This document shows, one piece after another, positions 1 to 6,130 of a stretch of DNA of 7,243 bases. Each line of letters opens with the position of its first letter. The first letter of the stretch is position 1. This stretch comes from a bacterium (GTDB taxonomy: Bacteria; Vulcanimicrobiota; Vulcanimicrobiia; Vulcanimicrobiales; Vulcanimicrobiaceae): positions 1 to 7,243 of the forward strand of contig JAKBCP010000036.1 in the NCBI GenBank assembly GCA_021807645.1, read 5' to 3'. The notes beneath the pieces are model-generated. The model had not been told where the DNA came from, did not search any database, and saw only the letters and a program-made list of their open reading frames with translations. The translations under genes and the position numbers were made by a program.

Positions 1-154
1 CTCCAGGCAACACGAACGCATCGTAATAGACGAGGCTTGCTGCCTCGCTCCAATGGACGATCCGTGCATCGGCTCCGCAATCGACGAGCAGATCGCGCGT
101 CTCTTCTTCGGAGTTCGTTCCCGGAAAGACGAGAACGGCGACCCGCGCCTTCAT
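1..154 (-). CDS. purQ: Phosphoribosylformylglycinamidine synthase, glutaminase subunit PurQ (N-terminal fragment, cut by window edge)
   Basis: This is the first 51 codons of the class I glutamine amidotransferase subunit of FGAM synthase, which releases ammonia from glutamine and passes it to PurL for the fourth step of purine synthesis. I translated it by hand; it was not in the list of long frames. The start reads MKARVAVLVFPGTNSEEE, and the fragment ends YYDAFVLPG. This matches the opening beta strand, the PG(S/T)N turn and the YDxxxxPGG strand of PurQ. Many PurQ proteins have NCD after the PG turn; here it is NSEE, a variation and not a defect. The nucleophile cysteine and His/Glu lie outside the window. 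The ATG overlaps the purL stop in an ATGA junction, and a good GAGGAG ribosome site sits 8 nt upstream. Identification is firm from sequence plus position after purL. Confidence 0.93.
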   Translation of the reverse strand, partial: MKARVAVLVFPGTNSEEETRDLLVDCGADARIVHWSEAASLVYYDAFVLPG

Positions 155-2457
155 GGAAAGAGCTCCTCGAGCGGTCGCGCCCAACTGCGGTGTAAATCGG
201 CGATCTCCCATGCCGAATCGTCGAACGCCAGCAGCGGCTGCGCAATGGTCGACCCGAGCTCGCGCACGCTCTCGAGCGCCCCCGCGAGTTCCTCGAAGCG
301 TTCGACATCGCGTTGCGCGACTTCGACGACGATGCCGCCCCACTCGCCGAAGACCGATTCGTAGAGCCCAGCGCCCGACCATCCGGCGACGCCGTCAAGT
401 TCCACGCCGATCGGCGCACGGCGCGCCGCCAAACAGCCGAAACTCATCTCGGCGAGCGTCACGAGGAGCCCGCCATCGGAGATGTCGTGCGCGCTTCGCA
501 GCAAACCTTCGCTTGCAGCAGCGAGGAGGAAGCGGTGCTCGGCGACGATACGCTCGATATCGATCTCCGGAACCGCCTCGTCGCCAAGAGCAAGGATCGA
601 CGCGAGCACGCTTCCGCCGAGCGCGCGCTGCGTCTCACCGACCAGATAGAGATGCGAACCAACTTCCTTCAACGGCAGAGTGACGCATTGCGAAAGATCC
701 GTAAGTCGACCGAGACAAGCGACGATCGGCGATGCCGGAATTGCATGTCCGCTCGGGGCTGCGTTGTACAGGCTCACGTTGCCCGATACGAAGGCGAGTC
801 CGAAACCGCGCGCCGCACGCGCCAGGCCATCGACTCCGGCGACGAGCTCGCCGTACTGCCGTGCGTCGCGCGGGCTCCCGTAATTCAAACAATCGGTTAA
901 GCCGATCGGTTCGGCGCCGACGGCAACGACGTTGCGCACCGATTCATAGACGGCGTGCTCGGCCGCACGTTGCGGATCGAGACGGCCGATGCGTGGATTT
1001 CCGTCGACGCTGAGCGCAAATGCGAGACGCGAGCCCCGAATCGGCGCCAGTACGCCGGCATCGGCCTCGCCGCGCGGAATAACCGTGCGCCCGCGTACGA
1101 CGGCATCATAATGGCGATAGAGCGGCGCACGCGAGCAGACATCGCGATGGGCGAGAATTTCGTGAAAGAGATCGTCGAGCGAGCGTTCGCAAAGAAGATC
1201 GTGCTCTCGATGCATGGTCGGCGGTATCGGCGCCTCGACGGGCAATGTATCGCGCACCGATCCGGTAAGAAAATCGATCGGTACGTCCATAACGAGCTCT
1301 CCGCGGTGGCGGAGCTGGTAGCGTTGTGCCGCAGTAGCGCGACCGATCCGCACCGCACGCGCATTTTGGGCGACTTGCGGCAGCGAGAATTCCTCGTTAT
1401 AGATACGCTCGACCTCGTCAACGATCTCCTCGGGAAGCGCCCAGAGCAGTCGTTCTTGCGTCTCGCCGACGGCGATGACCTCGGGAAGCAAATGATCGAC
1501 CGCGACGTTGACGGTGTCGAGATCGACTTCCGCTCCGAAACCGCCGGCGCTGCAGAGCTCCGCCGAGCAACCCATGATTCCGCCGGCGCCGAGATCTTTA
1601 AACCCGACCTCAATGCCGCGTTCGCGGAGGAGCGAAAAGACGCGATAACTCGCCCGCATGATGACGTTTTTGAGAAAGGGGTCGGGAACCTGAACGGCTC
1701 CTTTGTTGCTCTGCGATTCCTTCGCATCCAGAGCAACCGACGAAAACGAGGCACCTCCGAATCCACTGGCGTCGGTCGCCTTCCCGACGAGCAGGAGCAC
1801 GAAATTCTCGCCGTTGCGAGGAACGCGCGAGTGGATGATCTCCGATTCTTTGACTAAGCCGAGAGCGACGACATTTACGAGTACGTTGTCGTCGAATTCG
1901 CCATCGAAGTAGCAGTCACCGCCGAGATTCGGCACGCCGATTGCATTTCCGTATGCCGCCACGCCGTCAACGACGCCGCGTGCTACCGCTCGTTGGTGCG
2001 CGTTCGCGGCGTCGACGCTACCGAAACGGAGCGGGTCGGCGACCGCGACCACCTCGGCACCCATGCAGAGCACGTCGCGCACGATTCCGCCGATCCCGGT
2101 CGCGGCACCTTCGAACGGCACCACCTGCGAGGGGTGGTTATGCGATTCGTGCGCGATGACGATGCCGTAGCGTTCTCCCTCGTGCTCGCCGAGATGGAGA
2201 ATTCCGGCATCCTCGGCAGGCCCCAAAACGACATCGGAACCCGTGGTGGGAAGGCGTCCCAGGAGCGCTCGGCTCGATTTATAGGAGCAATGCTCGCTCC
2301 ATTGCGCATCGAAGGCATAGAGCTCGACGAGGCTCGGCGCGCGTCCGAGCTGCTGCGTGATACTCCGCAGTTCGTCGACGCGTAACGCCAAACCCAACGC
2401 ATCGGCGCGCGCGCGCAATGCTTCATCGTCGAGCTCGGCGACGGCTAGATCACGCAA
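151..2457 (-). CDS. purL: Phosphoribosylformylglycinamidine synthase, synthetase subunit PurL (small type)
   Basis: PurL converts FGAR, ATP and ammonia to FGAM in the cytoplasm, with PurQ as glutaminase and normally PurS as bridging subunit. With a TTG start at 2457 it has 768 residues, the small-PurL size class (Bacillus PurL is about 740) and far below the ~1300-residue single-chain form. Visible motifs: WSEHCSYK at 53-60 with the expected catalytic His56, HESHNHPS at 103-110, PFEGAATGIGG at 114-124, KDLGAGGIMG at 287-296, and in the second AIRS-like half LTDCLNYGSP at 520-529 and SGNVSLYN at 558-565. The TTG start gives an 8-bp overlap with purC and has a GGGGG purine run 6 nt upstream. 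An in-frame ATG at 2523 would add 22 residues, but it lies deeper in purC with no visible ribosome site. The stop overlaps the purQ start (ATGA). No purS precedes it. Function is certain; the exact start is less so. Confidence 0.97.
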   Translation of the reverse strand: MRDLAVAELDDEALRARADALGLALRVDELRSITQQLGRAPSLVELYAFDAQWSEHCSYKSSRALLGRLPTTGSDVVLGPAEDAGILHLGEHEGERYGIVIAHESHNHPSQVVPFEGAATGIGGIVRDVLCMGAEVVAVADPLRFGSVDAANAHQRAVARGVVDGVAAYGNAIGVPNLGGDCYFDGEFDDNVLVNVVALGLVKESEIIHSRVPRNGENFVLLLVGKATDASGFGGASFSSVALDAKESQSNKGAVQVPDPFLKNVIMRASYRVFSLLRERGIEVGFKDLGAGGIMGCSAELCSAGGFGAEVDLDTVNVAVDHLLPEVIAVGETQERLLWALPEEIVDEVERIYNEEFSLPQVAQNARAVRIGRATAAQRYQLRHRGELVMDVPIDFLTGSVRDTLPVEAPIPPTMHREHDLLCERSLDDLFHEILAHRDVCSRAPLYRHYDAVVRGRTVIPRGEADAGVLAPIRGSRLAFALSVDGNPRIGRLDPQRAAEHAVYESVRNVVAVGAEPIGLTDCLNYGSPRDARQYGELVAGVDGLARAARGFGLAFVSGNVSLYNAAPSGHAIPASPIVACLGRLTDLSQCVTLPLKEVGSHLYLVGETQRALGGSVLASILALGDEAVPEIDIERIVAEHRFLLAAASEGLLRSAHDISDGGLLVTLAEMSFGCLAARRAPIGVELDGVAGWSGAGLYESVFGEWGGIVVEVAQRDVERFEELAGALESVRELGSTIAQPLLAFDDSAWEIADLHRSWARPLEELFP
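163..168 (-). promoter_or_regulatory. Ribosome binding site of purQ
   Basis: On the minus strand this reads GAGGAG, 8 nt before the purQ ATG at 154. It lies inside the end of purL and supports the ATGA-overlap start. Confidence 0.7.
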
Positions 2458-2869
2458 TGACGGCCCCCGGCGGAAGTTGCTGTTGGAGCAAAGCGTCGAC
2501 GCGCAACATCTCAGAGCGTGCATTCGATTGCGCGAGCATCACCCGTCCGAACATCGCCGAATCGTCGATCGCGAGCAATTTCGCACACGCCAGCGCGATG
2601 CGGTGCGGCTCGTCGTTCCCGTCGATGACCGGCGAGCTGGCGCTGCCGTCGAGCGTCGTTCGAAGGGTACGGTCGCCGATTGCTACGAAAATCGGCCGCG
2701 CGAAACTCGCCTCGATCTGCGCGACGATCTGCAGCACGTAGCCGGGTGTGACGGTGACGCTTGCGAGATGGCGCGCCGTCGGGATGCCGAACGCGTGCAG
2801 CGCCGTAGCAACTTCGTTCGCTCGTTCGACGATCGCTTCTTCATCGACGAAGATCGCCGCGACTCCGGG
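2450..2869 (-). other. Degenerate AIR carboxylase (PurE)-like domain at the C-terminus of PurC
   Basis: This region encodes PurC residues ~258-396. Two stretches recall PurE. The first is a segment with FGIP (284-287) followed by a strand and TPGYVLQI (298-305), aligning with the FGIP...SAH(R/K)xPD region. The second is PIFVAIGDRTL (316-326) followed by SSPVI (335-339), aligning with the VFVAVAGRSNGLG...YPVI strand of animal PurE. The tail IALACAKLLAIDD (348-360) resembles the final AAxxLAL helix. The catalytic elements are replaced: the GSxSD loop reads VDEEA, SAHR/KxP reads ASVTVTP with no histidine, and the G(A/R)xxxLPG-type loop is unrecognisable. The roughly 40 residues between the PVI strand and the final helix (the VQMPGGVPVATV region in class I PurE) are absent. 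I infer a catalytically dead, possibly structural domain. Homology was judged by eye only. Confidence 0.62.
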
Positions 2870-3640
2870 CCGCATCGCCGGGAAGCTGCCGACGAAATCC
2901 GCGACCTGTTCGTAAGCCGCCTTTACGCGGGCGAGGCCGGCTTCATCGACCGGGTCGAGATTCCGGTAGATCTGCTTGTCGAGCATTTGGTCTTCGTGTC
3001 CGTGCCGCCAAATGCGCCACGAATCGTTATCGATCACATCGGCGATGACCAGTTGCCCCTGATTCTCCCCTCCGATCAAGCGACCGAATTCGATCTTGAG
3101 ATCGACGAGGAGGACGTCGCGATGTCGCCATGCATGGGCGAGAATTTCGAACGTAAGCCGAGCGATCTCGCTCATCGAGCCGATCTCGTTCGGCGAAGCG
3201 ATACCGCGGGCAGCGATCTCTTCCGGAGCGATCAGCGGATCGTGGTTTGCATCGTCCTTAAAAAAGAACTCGGTGACCCGGGGCACCAAGACCGATCCGC
3301 GTTGGAGACCCGTATGCCGACGCGCGAACGAACCCGCGGCAACCCCGCGAACGACGACTTCGAGCGGAATCATCGAGCAACGCCGTACCAACATCTCGTT
3401 GTCGTCGTCATCCTCGCCGCCGTTGAGAAAATGCGTCGGAAGACCGCAGAGATTGAGTAACCTGAAAACACGCGAGGTCGTCTGAGCGGCGAGGCGCCCT
3501 TTCCCGGGAATCTCATCGCGTCGCGCGCCGTCTCCCGCGGTGATCGCATCGCCCTGCGCGACGACCAGCTGATCGGGAGAGCTCGGTACTTCGTAGAGAA
3601 TTTTCGTCTTACCGCGGGCGATCTCGATGCCTTTATCCAC
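2450..3640 (-). CDS. purC: SAICAR synthetase PurC fused to a degenerate PurE-like C-terminal domain (PAICS-like)
   Basis: SAICAR synthetase joins CAIR and aspartate using ATP in the eighth step of purine synthesis. The protein has 396 residues, against about 235-300 for ordinary PurC. Residues 5-250 form the synthetase: ARGKTKILYEV at 8-18 (nucleotide loop), GDAITAGDGA at 30-39, IPLEVVVRGVAAGSF at 91-105, FFFKDDANHDP at 125-135, VDLKIEFG at 179-186, and ADVIDNDSWRIW at 200-211, followed by DKQIYRNL. From memory these resemble the synthetase half of animal PAICS (FFKDDANNDP, VIDNDSWRLW, DKQSYRDL). Residues ~258-386 are a PurE-like remnant, described separately. I chose the GTG start at 3640 because it has a GGAGG site 6 nt upstream and begins right at the family N-terminus; the longer frame to 3739 only adds purB antiframe sequence. 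It overlaps purB by 8 bp and purL by 8 bp. The synthetase call is secure. Confidence 0.96.
   Translation of the reverse strand: MDKGIEIARGKTKILYEVPSSPDQLVVAQGDAITAGDGARRDEIPGKGRLAAQTTSRVFRLLNLCGLPTHFLNGGEDDDDNEMLVRRCSMIPLEVVVRGVAAGSFARRHTGLQRGSVLVPRVTEFFFKDDANHDPLIAPEEIAARGIASPNEIGSMSEIARLTFEILAHAWRHRDVLLVDLKIEFGRLIGGENQGQLVIADVIDNDSWRIWRHGHEDQMLDKQIYRNLDPVDEAGLARVKAAYEQVADFVGSFPAMRPGVAAIFVDEEAIVERANEVATALHAFGIPTARHLASVTVTPGYVLQIVAQIEASFARPIFVAIGDRTLRTTLDGSASSPVIDGNDEPHRIALACAKLLAIDDSAMFGRVMLAQSNARSEMLRVDALLQQQLPPGAVIA
2464..2468 (-). promoter_or_regulatory. Weak G-rich ribosome site for purL
   Basis: GGGGG on the minus strand, 6 nt before the TTG at 2457, inside the last codons of purC. It can pair with CCUCC of 16S rRNA using one G-U pair. 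It is not canonical, but it is better than anything before the alternative ATG at 2523. Confidence 0.35.
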
Positions 3641-5072
3641 GTTCTTCCTCCGACGGATTATGGGCGACGATGCGTTGTTGCGGGAACACCGGTAGGGCCT
3701 CGATCTGCTCGGCGACCATGCGCGCGCGACGAGCCGCAAGGCCGACGTGACCCGTCGGATCGAGCGAGCGCCGAATCTCGGCTGGATCGATCAACTTCGT
3801 AAGCGAGCCATCGCCCGCAAGCAGCGTCGCGAGCGGATTATCTTCTCCTCGCGCGAGCGCATCCCACGCCTCCATCGCTCGCCCGCGCAACGTTTCGTGC
3901 AACTCCTGGCGGTCGCCGCCGGCGCGCGCCGCCTCCATCATCACCCGTTCGGTGCCGGCGAACGGCCCGTAGGTGCGCACGTTCTGCGCGATACGCCGCT
4001 CGTCGATGCGTAAGCCGCGCACGACGCGTAATGCTAACGATAAAATCTCATCGACGCAGAGTAACGCTTCGGGAATCGTCGTGCGCCGGTTCGCGCTGTC
4101 GTCGAGCGTGCGTTCCAGGTAATTGGTTGCCGCATTTTGCCAGGCGACATCGGCATACGCAGGCAGAAGGCGCGCCAGCGAATCGATCCGTTCGCAGAGA
4201 ATCGGATTGCGTTTGAAAGGCATCGCACTGCTGCCGACTTGAGCGCTTCCGAAGGGTTCGGCGAGTTCGCCGAAGGGCGGGGCACTGAGGATGCGGATAT
4301 CGGCTGCGAACTTCGAGAGCGAGGTGCCGATGCCGGCGAGCGCGCTCAGCAACAGATAGTCGAGCTTTCGCGTGTAGGTCTGCGTGCTCGCAGCGCGTGC
4401 CTCGAGGCCGAAGTGCTCGAGCACTTCGCGCTCGAGATCGATCGACGCGCCCGCTCCGCCGAGCAACTGCTCGTAGGAAGCCGAGGTGCCGACCGCACCG
4501 CGCAGCCCCTTGGTCGTCATCTGCGCAAAGACATGACGCAGGTTCGCATCGTCGATGAGGAGATCTTGAGCGTAGATCGCAAAGCGATATCCTAACGTCG
4601 TCGGCTCCGCCGGTTGCAGATGCGTGAACGCCATGCAAAGGCGATCCGCCTGCGAGGTGATGCGCTCGGCGAAGGCGGCGAGCACTTCGCGAAGGCGTTC
4701 GCCGATCGTCGAGAGCGCGCGCCGGATACGATAGGTCTCGACGGTATCTTCGATATCCATCGAGGTTGCGCCGAGGTGCAGTTTCCCACCGCCGATCCGC
4801 GCCTGCGAGGCATAGACGCGAATCTCGGCCATGAGGTCGTGGTGAATCGAGCGTTCGATCTCCAGCGCCGCCTCGATATCGATCTCGTCGGCATGGGCGC
4901 GCAAATCGGCGAGTTCGGCCTCGTTGACCAGGCCATGCTTGGCTTCGGCCTGCGCTAAGGCGATCCAAACCTCGCGCCAGAGCCGCCGCCGCGTCCGCTC
5001 CGAGAAGAGCGAGCGCACGTCCTTGCGACCGTACCTCCAAGAGAACGGCGAAGCATAACTGGAGTGATCCAT
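3633..5072 (-). CDS. purB: Adenylosuccinate lyase PurB (animal ADSL-like)
   Basis: PurB cleaves fumarate from SAICAR to give AICAR (the step after PurC) and from adenylosuccinate to give AMP. It has 479 residues from the ATG at 5072. Fumarase/aspartase superfamily motifs: HLGATSMD at 99-106, FTHLQPAEPTT at 149-159 (catalytic His151), TQTYTRK at 230-236, and the signature GSSAMPFKRNP at 280-290, whose flexible loop carries the catalytic serine. ERTLDDSANRR at 320-330 and the N-terminal SPFSWRYG match the human ADSL branch (484 aa) as I remember it, rather than the Bacillus-type lyases. I chose ATG 5072 because the family homology begins there. An in-frame TTG at 5153, overlapping the holA stop as TTGA, would add 27 Arg/Pro/Gly-rich residues with no family counterpart. 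The ribosome site before the ATG is weak. The stop overlaps purC by 8 bp. Confidence 0.96.
   Translation of the reverse strand: MDHSSYASPFSWRYGRKDVRSLFSERTRRRLWREVWIALAQAEAKHGLVNEAELADLRAHADEIDIEAALEIERSIHHDLMAEIRVYASQARIGGGKLHLGATSMDIEDTVETYRIRRALSTIGERLREVLAAFAERITSQADRLCMAFTHLQPAEPTTLGYRFAIYAQDLLIDDANLRHVFAQMTTKGLRGAVGTSASYEQLLGGAGASIDLEREVLEHFGLEARAASTQTYTRKLDYLLLSALAGIGTSLSKFAADIRILSAPPFGELAEPFGSAQVGSSAMPFKRNPILCERIDSLARLLPAYADVAWQNAATNYLERTLDDSANRRTTIPEALLCVDEILSLALRVVRGLRIDERRIAQNVRTYGPFAGTERVMMEAARAGGDRQELHETLRGRAMEAWDALARGEDNPLATLLAGDGSLTKLIDPAEIRRSLDPTGHVGLAARRARMVAEQIEALPVFPQQRIVAHNPSEEERG
3647..3651 (-). promoter_or_regulatory. Ribosome binding site of purC
   Basis: Reads GGAGG (within CGGAGGAAG) on the minus strand, 6 nt before the GTG at 3640. 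It decides in favour of this GTG start and lies within the last codons of purB (SEEERG). Confidence 0.8.
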
Positions 5073-5149
5073 GGGTGCTCGCCGCTGTTCGCTCCGCGCG
5101 TTGCCGCGGCCTCGTTTGCGGGGGGAGTTTTCAGGGCTCGCGCCGCCCC
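5073..5149. other. Only intergenic gap in the window (holA-purB)
   Basis: This 77-bp stretch is the one break in an otherwise overlapping gene chain. On the minus strand it has CCCCCC, an AAAAC patch, then a GC-rich stretch with a short hairpin. I see no -10/-35 pair of good quality and no hairpin with a T-run that would make a Rho-independent terminator. It could be an untranslated linker, a weak promoter region, or a copy of a dispersed repeat. Confidence 0.5.
5094..5109. repeat. Short inverted repeat (possible mRNA hairpin) upstream of purB
   Basis: CCGCG and CGCGG form a 5-bp perfect GC stem around a 6-nt loop, 21 nt before the purB ATG. It has no following T-run, so it is not a typical terminator. 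It might be part of a dispersed palindromic element or simply chance in GC-rich DNA. Confidence 0.3.
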
Positions 5150-6130
5150 TCAACGCAGGACGAGTTCGAGGCTGGTCCGCTCGACGAGGAGGCGGAGATC
5201 CTCCGGGTCGCTACCGGCCCGCCCGGTCACGATGCTTTCGATCCCGCGCAGGGCCCGCTCGTAGCCGGCTCGTGCCCGACCCTCACCGATCCGCCGAGCG
5301 ATCGGCCGGAGCGCCCGCTCGCGCCAGGCCATCCGAGCGGGCAGCGCGCCGCCGGGGCGTGCCATCTCCCAGAGCATCGCATATTCGTTCGCGAGCGCCG
5401 AGAGCAGCGGCATCGCGGCGTTGCGCGGTTCGCGTTCGAAGCAATCGCCGAGAATCGAGAAGGCTTCGGCGACTCGTCCTTCGACTAGCGCCCCGGCGAA
5501 ACGATAGGGCTTCGGGTCGTCGACGGCGAGGCTCTCCTGCTCGAGATCGTCGAGCGCGATCTTTCGCCCAAGGAGCGAGAGTTTCGAAAGATCGTTGCGA
5601 ATGCTCGCGAGATCGCTCTCCGAACGCGAGAGATGCGCGAGCACCTGCCGGTCGGCCTCCGCCCCGGCGGCGGCGAGTTCGTCGGCAACGAATCGCGCAC
5701 GAATCTCCTCGTTGACCGTGCAATCGATCCGTGATGCACTGCGGCCCAACTGCGAGCCGATCGATGCCGGGCGCACCGAGCGCGGCGCCAAAAGATCGCA
5801 GATCACGAGCAGGTTCTCGCCATCGAGGAAGCGCTGCGCGAGTTCGAGCAACGCGCGCCGCGGTGCAGCCTTTGCGACCTGCACCTCGTTGACGATAACG
5901 ATGCGCCGCGGTGCGAGAAACGGCATCGCCGAGAGCGCTTCTTCGATCTGCGCGCAGTCGTCGACGCTTTCGAGCGTTACGCTGCTGCAGTTGAGCGCGC
6001 GTACGTCCTCGGCAAGCTCGCGCGCGAGCAGGGCGTCGCGCACTCGCTCGGCGAGAAGGCGATCGGTTCCTTCGATGACGACGATCGCTCCGAGTTTCGG
6101 CGTGCCGTCTAAAAAATCGTAAGCCTTCAC
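5150..6130 (-). CDS. holA: DNA polymerase III delta subunit HolA
   Basis: The delta subunit of the clamp loader opens the beta sliding clamp during replication. The protein is 326 residues (E. coli delta 343). Seen: an N-terminal Rossmann-like start with IVVIEGTDRLLAERVRDAL (16-34), where the family has a degenerate P-loop region, as expected for a subunit that does not hydrolyse ATP. Then MPFLAPRRIVIVNEV (69-83), a characteristic strand; ENLLVICD (105-112); the lid helix SDLASIRNDLSKLSLLG (172-188), typical of delta; and a helical collar domain ending DLRLLVERTSLELVLR. I chose the GTG at 6130 because it forms a GTGA overlap with the mtnA stop and starts at the family N-terminus (AYDFLDG). 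An ATG at 6166 would add 12 residues and a 40-bp overlap. Divergent family, but the pattern and length are convincing. Confidence 0.87.
   Translation of the reverse strand: MKAYDFLDGTPKLGAIVVIEGTDRLLAERVRDALLARELAEDVRALNCSSVTLESVDDCAQIEEALSAMPFLAPRRIVIVNEVQVAKAAPRRALLELAQRFLDGENLLVICDLLAPRSVRPASIGSQLGRSASRIDCTVNEEIRARFVADELAAAGAEADRQVLAHLSRSESDLASIRNDLSKLSLLGRKIALDDLEQESLAVDDPKPYRFAGALVEGRVAEAFSILGDCFEREPRNAAMPLLSALANEYAMLWEMARPGGALPARMAWRERALRPIARRIGEGRARAGYERALRGIESIVTGRAGSDPEDLRLLVERTSLELVLR

Follow-up and report, generated by a model that had tools for sequence, protein, structure and literature searches.

The window, a 7,243-nucleotide stretch of DNA (contig JAKBCP010000036.1), comes from a bacterium of the family Vulcanimicrobiaceae, found in the NCBI taxonomy as Baltobacteraceae within the phylum Vulcanimicrobiota. 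On its minus strand it carries a purine biosynthesis gene, purC-purE', in which a SAICAR synthetase (PurC) domain is joined to a divergent PurE-like domain. The open reading frame (ORF) lies where the initial annotation had placed it, from a GTG start at 3640 to a TGA stop at 2452-2450 (396 codons). Its product is, as had been noticed there, too long for a PurC: 169 residues stand C-terminal of the PurC domain.

The fused protein and its PurE half

The N-terminal domain matches the Pfam family SAICAR_synt (PF01259) over residues 7-227 with 204 bits (cut-off 20), which makes it a PurC, and the conserved residues of SAICAR synthetases are present, as in PAICS. The score of the narrower PurC model TIGR00081 is 144.3 bits, under the cut-off of 189.9. 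The NCBIfam PurE model (TIGR01162) matches the extension together with the linker at an expectation value (E) of 1.8e-4, with 21 bits against a curated cut-off of 149.6, and the Pfam AIRC model (PF00731) matches the extension at E 0.087, with 12.8 bits against a curated cut-off of 30; it therefore scores under both PurE-family cut-offs. A profile built from 19 sequences of the extension alone reaches invertebrate PAICS over the full length at E 5.3e-14, human PAICS at 5.9e-8 and free PurEs from 2.2e-7, and 20 of its 26 matches at E up to 10 are PAICS or PurE. The likeness of the extension to PurE is beyond chance, as the initial annotation had surmised. The proposed PAICS-like order, PurC followed by PurE on one chain, is also found: the phmmer alignment with PAICS crosses from PurC into the PurE half and extends to about residue 341, with the last helices outside. 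Matches occurred in 53 plasmid records, none covering 80% of the query; the five matches listed all end at or before residue 258.

An AlphaFold2 (AF2) monomer prediction of the whole protein has a predicted local distance difference test score (pLDDT) of 92.1 and a predicted template modelling score (pTM) of 0.90, and its top fold match is human octameric PAICS. The predicted fold of residues 257-387 resembles the class II PurE of Treponema denticola (PDB 3rg8; 1.3 Å over 131 residues, 21% identity), and is thus of the PAICS/PurE type rather than an unrelated one. Of the marks of the PurE family, the extension has the predicted fold and detectable homology. Human PAICS is an octamer (PMC9376930, in excerpt; also the title of the PDB entry).

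The carboxylase site of human PAICS comprises Met272-Asp277, Ser301-Lys304 and Val328-Leu335, with His303 as general base (PMC9376930, in excerpt). At the equivalents of positions 272-277, 301-304 and 328-335, the window protein keeps only Ser301 and a Leu, and so does not have the site of a PAICS carboxylase. The motif losses described by the initial annotation are borne out, with VDEEAI in place of MGSxSD, SVTV in place of SAHK (the Ser remains) and IGDR in place of AGRSN. A segment is also missing before the last helices, as had been claimed, but it amounts to ~25 residues and not ~40. From this loss of residues, the PurE half is likely to be catalytically inactive. The features of the window are collected in Table 1.

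Table 1. Features of the window and of the fusion protein; residue numbers refer to the 396-residue product unless marked human.
Feature	Coordinates	Strand	Remarks
purC-purE' fusion gene, 396 aa	2450..3640	-	from sequence
SAICAR synthetase (PurC) domain, residues 1-227	2960..3640	-	invariant residues, GKTK among them, retained
Linker helix and FPxMRPG stretch, residues 228-256	2873..2959	-	newly fixed L228, V231, P254, M256
Place of lost MGSxSD loop (human 272-277), residues 265-270	2831..2848	-	VDEEAI
Place of SAHK (human 301-304), residues 294-297	2750..2761	-	SVTV; His and Lys lost, Ser kept
Place of lost AGRSN loop (human 329-333), ~residues 321-324	2669..2680	-	IGDR
Deletion site, residues 341-346	2603..2620	-	~25 residues including SSLxxPSG gone between PVID and last helices
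C-terminal helices kept from PurE, residues 345-387	2480..2608	-	K354, G365, R366, R375, D382 conserved
purB ORF, upstream neighbour, start approximate	3633..5153	-	gene named likewise in relative L005
purL, downstream neighbour	151..2457	-	TTG start inferred from overlap; gene named likewise in L005
purQ, 5' part, cut by contig end, start approximate	2..154	-	gene named likewise in L005

Erosion, loss and selection across Vulcanimicrobiota

We searched 149 genomes of the phylum with PF00731 (PurE), TIGR01161 (PurK) and PF01259 (PurC), and fetched and read the purC ORFs; PurC was matched in 120 genomes. Here f1 denotes the window's family, f2 its sister family, f3 a family with a motif-bearing domain and g35 a genus within f1. 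A motif-bearing PurE domain is fused to PurC in 18 genomes (f3 13, f6 3, f8 1, f13 1). The domain is eroded at full length in 4/4 f2 genomes. Among the 99 f1 genomes, 79 keep an eroded domain (among them G047, whose contig does not include the 5' end of the gene), six have lost it, three have a cut or broken gene and 11 have no readable purC (ten without a PF01259 match; G124 with a weak partial match). An in-frame stop interrupts purC at L142 (genome G112) and at L165 (genome G034); G112 also has an extension-free purC on another contig.

Residue counts follow the same division. All nine checked active-site residues are kept in the 18 motif-bearing rows (5/5 outgroup, 13/13 f3), and the general-base His falls from 18/18 in these to 0/4 in f2 and 8/80 in f1, the 80 f1 rows coming from 79 genomes because G102 supplies two. 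The f2 proteins have Lys304 (4/4) and have lost Ser332 (0/4). In f1, Asp277 and Asn333 are each 0/80, Gly273 and Ser332 3/80, Gly330 16/80, Lys304 18/80 and Ser274 20/80; Ser301 stands in 76/80. The SSLxxPSG segment of ~25 residues is absent from 43 of 44 f1 rows and partial in the other. Positions conserved among the 18 motif-bearing proteins are kept in f1 at 2/14 in the active site, 0/14 in the deleted segment, 7/14 in the C-terminal helices and 7/14 elsewhere. Thirteen positions are newly fixed (shared by at least 90% of f1 rows and by fewer than 50% of the 18 proteins with motifs), four in the linker and nine in the domain, including P254, R257, R290, F313 and N373; eight of them are already present in 4/4 f2 proteins. 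By these alignments, it is not the active site that the domain has preserved.

Fusion type was compared with the separate genes. The genome of the window has a class I purE (TIGR01162, 198.7 bits) overlapping purK, both intact, a pair that the initial annotation had suggested looking for. Both genes occur in 73 of the 79 f1 genomes with an eroded domain and in all four f2 genomes (the PurK of G032 is a fragment). By contrast, 17 of the 18 genomes with a motif-bearing domain lack class I PurE and PurK, their best matches to the PurK model being no better than 4.7e-11; the remaining one (G007) has both. A gene was scored as absent in f1 when no match reached E 1e-40 (class I PurE) or E 1e-15 (PurK), and the absence lists and the map of genomes to loci were compiled by hand from the search tables. 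Weak second PF00731 matches (~E-15), considered as possible extra PurEs, were LarB in all three cases scanned.

A separate case of erosion is found in f13. In G132 and G131 the PurE half is eroded and its middle segment is also shortened, with the last helix kept; G133, of the same family, retains the motifs. Grouping G132 (the one f13 row in the residue count, G131 being read separately) with f1, f2 and g35 was rejected by the approximately unbiased (AU) test (p-AU 5e-6). PurE and PurK were not found in either genome with PF00731 and TIGR01161, the single PF00731 match of G132 being LarB. G132 (locus L129) is rated 100% complete and G131 (L211) 61%; in G131 the PurC half, too, seems to have altered residues.

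The extension, present in relatives, is under purifying selection, which is relaxed yet still strong. Within the genus (10 sequences, 45 pairs), the median ratio of nonsynonymous to synonymous substitution rates (dN/dS) is 0.023 for PurC and 0.045 for the extension, or 0.036 when only residues 255-383 are taken. Of the 167 sites that vary in the extension, 132 are at third codon positions. Across f1 (229 pairs) the values are 0.153 and 0.069, and across f3 (8 pairs) 0.099 and 0.113; the f1 and f3 pairs were of the same length, 75 to 99.5% identical and with dS <2.5, other pairs being dropped.

Possible roles of the retained domain

We conclude, with a probability of roughly two in three, that the window protein is a PAICS-type fusion of PurC with a class II PurE, whose PurE half has been shorn of most site residues and of a segment of ~25 residues, is likely dead, and is kept by selection, likely as an oligomer core that assembles PurC. 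The pseudoenzyme interpretation of the initial annotation is thereby supported; the profile, fold, selection and purE/purK checks did not refute it. In the ancestor, carboxyaminoimidazole ribonucleotide (CAIR) would have been made by the fused, CO2-dependent class II PurE. The lineage of f1 and its sister f2 would then have switched to separate PurK and class I PurE for CAIR, whereupon the fused domain, presumably redundant, lost its site. Catalytic residues may have been lost first (f2, full length), followed by the active-site segment (f1) and, in one genus, by the whole domain; the core and the C-terminal helices would have stayed and gained conserved residues of their own. PurE halves form the core of the PAICS octamer. 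Considering this arrangement together with the kept core and helices and their own conserved residues, a role in the assembly of PurC appears the most economical.

Several observations weigh against this reading. The catalytic column still has His in eight f1 rows and Ser301 persists in 76, and an f2-like protein, P0137, retains SAHK, as stepwise decay would leave. The motif-bearing relatives are intact by motif only, and their activity is assumed because the motifs are present and no other CAIR route was found; Ser276 is missing in 7/13 f3 and 2/5 outgroup rows, and Gly334 is replaced by Ala in 13/13 f3. Six of the 79 domain-keeping f1 genomes lack a found gene (two PurK, one PurE, three both), many of these genomes being incomplete. 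G057 (L106), rated 96% complete, has the eroded domain with no purE or purK found; a gap is likely there, because G056 of the same genus carries both. Constraint is relaxed, with an extension/PurC dN/dS ratio of 2.2 in f1 compared to 0.88 in f3. The six g35 genomes are without the domain, which is therefore dispensable there; their PurCs stop in the linker (YEEVAxxVxxF), and this retained linker suggests descent from fused forms. Lastly, the phylogeny is not uniform. A quick PurC tree unites f1, f2 and g35 as one clade with a Shimodaira-Hasegawa-like approximate likelihood ratio test (SH-aLRT) value of 84, with four of seven bacterial outgroup proteins dropped for having no anchor motif and f1 thinned to 47 genomes. 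The careful tree, from which f14, G131 and the three remaining outgroup proteins were also removed (long branches) and whose bootstrap had not settled, does not unite them when unconstrained, although the clade is not rejected (p-AU 0.35). Given these trees, loss in g35 after, not before, the erosion would rest on the placement of g35 in f1.

The domain might instead be a passive remnant that is being lost: with PurK and class I PurE in place its catalysis would no longer have been needed, and what is left would be constrained only since misfolding would spoil PurC. Its complete disappearance from the six g35 genomes and the constraint relaxed relative to the intact family fit this account. 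The within-genus dN/dS of ~0.04, the retention of the domain in 79 of 85 readable f1 PurCs, the newly fixed residues and the confident, compact predicted fold argue otherwise, and we regard it as unlikely, though less so than the other alternatives. It is more doubtful that the separate class I PurE (or PurK) binds to the domain and that CAIR is channelled from there to the PurC site, in replacement of the intramolecular channelling proposed for PAICS. Such docking is consistent with the channel described in PAICS (PMC9376930, in excerpt), with the kept predicted PurE fold, which by the titles of the structure entries self-assembles in octamers of PurE and of PAICS, and with the 73 of 79 genomes that have separate PurE and PurK, but purE-purK lies on another contig in the genome of the window (C95 versus C19). 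A bolder and similarly improbable proposal is that the dead carboxylase domain is now a docking core that co-assembles with the same-fold class I PurE, unstable N5-carboxyaminoimidazole ribonucleotide (N5-CAIR) and CAIR being passed from PurK and PurE to PurC in the mixed assembly; a like conversion would have begun independently in f13.

We give little credence to the idea that the domain, its site altered, continues to act as an enzyme or senses a ligand. The newly fixed residues, Ser301 and the occasional His could be read in that way; against it, no f1 row has Asp277 or Asn333, most rows have lost most of the other site residues, and the segment has been deleted. An artefact of assembly or frame, whereby the extension would not be PurE or would not be translated, can be considered refuted: the genome of the window is fragmented (287 contigs), but nine named relatives (L002-L010) have an ORF of the same length, 93 to 98% identical, and variation is mostly at third codon positions. 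The assembly of PurC by a degenerate PurE core remains our preferred explanation.

Genomic context and relation to known systems

The fusion gene lies between purB and purL, its GTG start overlapping the purB stop by 8 nucleotides and its stop overlapping the likely TTG start of purL. The records of the nine relatives are labelled Candidatus Eremiobacterota or just bacterium. In one of them, L005, the order is ribBA, mtnA, holA (score just under its cut-off), purB, purC, purL, purQ, a PurS-like ORF and two purP-like genes. The adjacent purP-like genes (L005:10655-12823) belong to the purine operon; purP is a formate-dependent AICAR ligase described from archaea (PMC3261824, in excerpt). The PurS-like ORF (L005:10149-10658) encodes a divergent protein of 169 residues that scores under the cut-off (E 3.2e-4). 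The Pfam PurS model had no matches in the f1 and f2 genomes among the 149 searched. A new role of the extension near PurL, suggested by this absence, was dropped because of the PurS-like ORF that follows purQ in L005.

In the open-licence literature of PubMed Central, which leaves most subscription papers outside, we found no recognisable account of an eroded PurE fused to PurC, nor of purine synthesis in this phylum. Vulcanimicrobium alpinum, a cultivated member, requires high CO2 even when it grows heterotrophically (PMC9758169, in excerpt). One survey describes aminoimidazole ribonucleotide (AIR) carboxylase as almost exclusively eukaryotic (PMC4177761, in excerpt), whereas fusions of the PAICS type that carry class II motifs occur widely in this phylum. 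Among the listed homologues (120 of 284 proteins), some bacterial motif-bearing fusions are named carboxylase/synthase by the Joint Genome Institute (JGI), and two proteins, P0151 and P0153, combine a PurF-type domain with a PurE domain in a single chain.

Related genomes offer a natural series in which the domain is motif-bearing, motif-less, shortened or absent, in correspondence with whether a separate ATP-dependent route through PurK and class I PurE is present. With it one may ask whether a PAICS-like core has value beyond catalysis, in assembly or channelling, a question to which the bifunctional animal enzyme gives no clean answer. Furthermore, behind the annotation PurC there is, in a bacterial family, a pseudoenzyme-like domain.

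Animal PAICS (PDB 6yb8, 2h31 and 4ja0) is the closest known counterpart, similar to the window protein in domain order, linker, predicted whole-chain fold and homology in both halves. In contrast to PAICS, the window protein lacks the active-site segment and most of the residues of the carboxylase site, and its genome encodes separate PurK and class I PurE. The motif-bearing PurC-class II PurE fusions (f3 and others of the phylum; also Patescibacteria) are homologous and of the same architecture but, unlike the window protein, keep all the checked residues, in genomes that, with one exception, have neither separate enzyme. The Treponema denticola PurE is similar in predicted fold but is a free-standing enzyme. 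The PurE-PurE' tandem of Methanobacteria likewise contains a second, diverged domain of PurE type, whose role, in the view considered by the authors, would be structural, in assembly (PMC3261824, in excerpt). There, unlike in the window protein, the partner is PurE and not PurC, and PurE' may be catalytic; in the same excerpt, a deletion in PurE' abolished complementation in E. coli.

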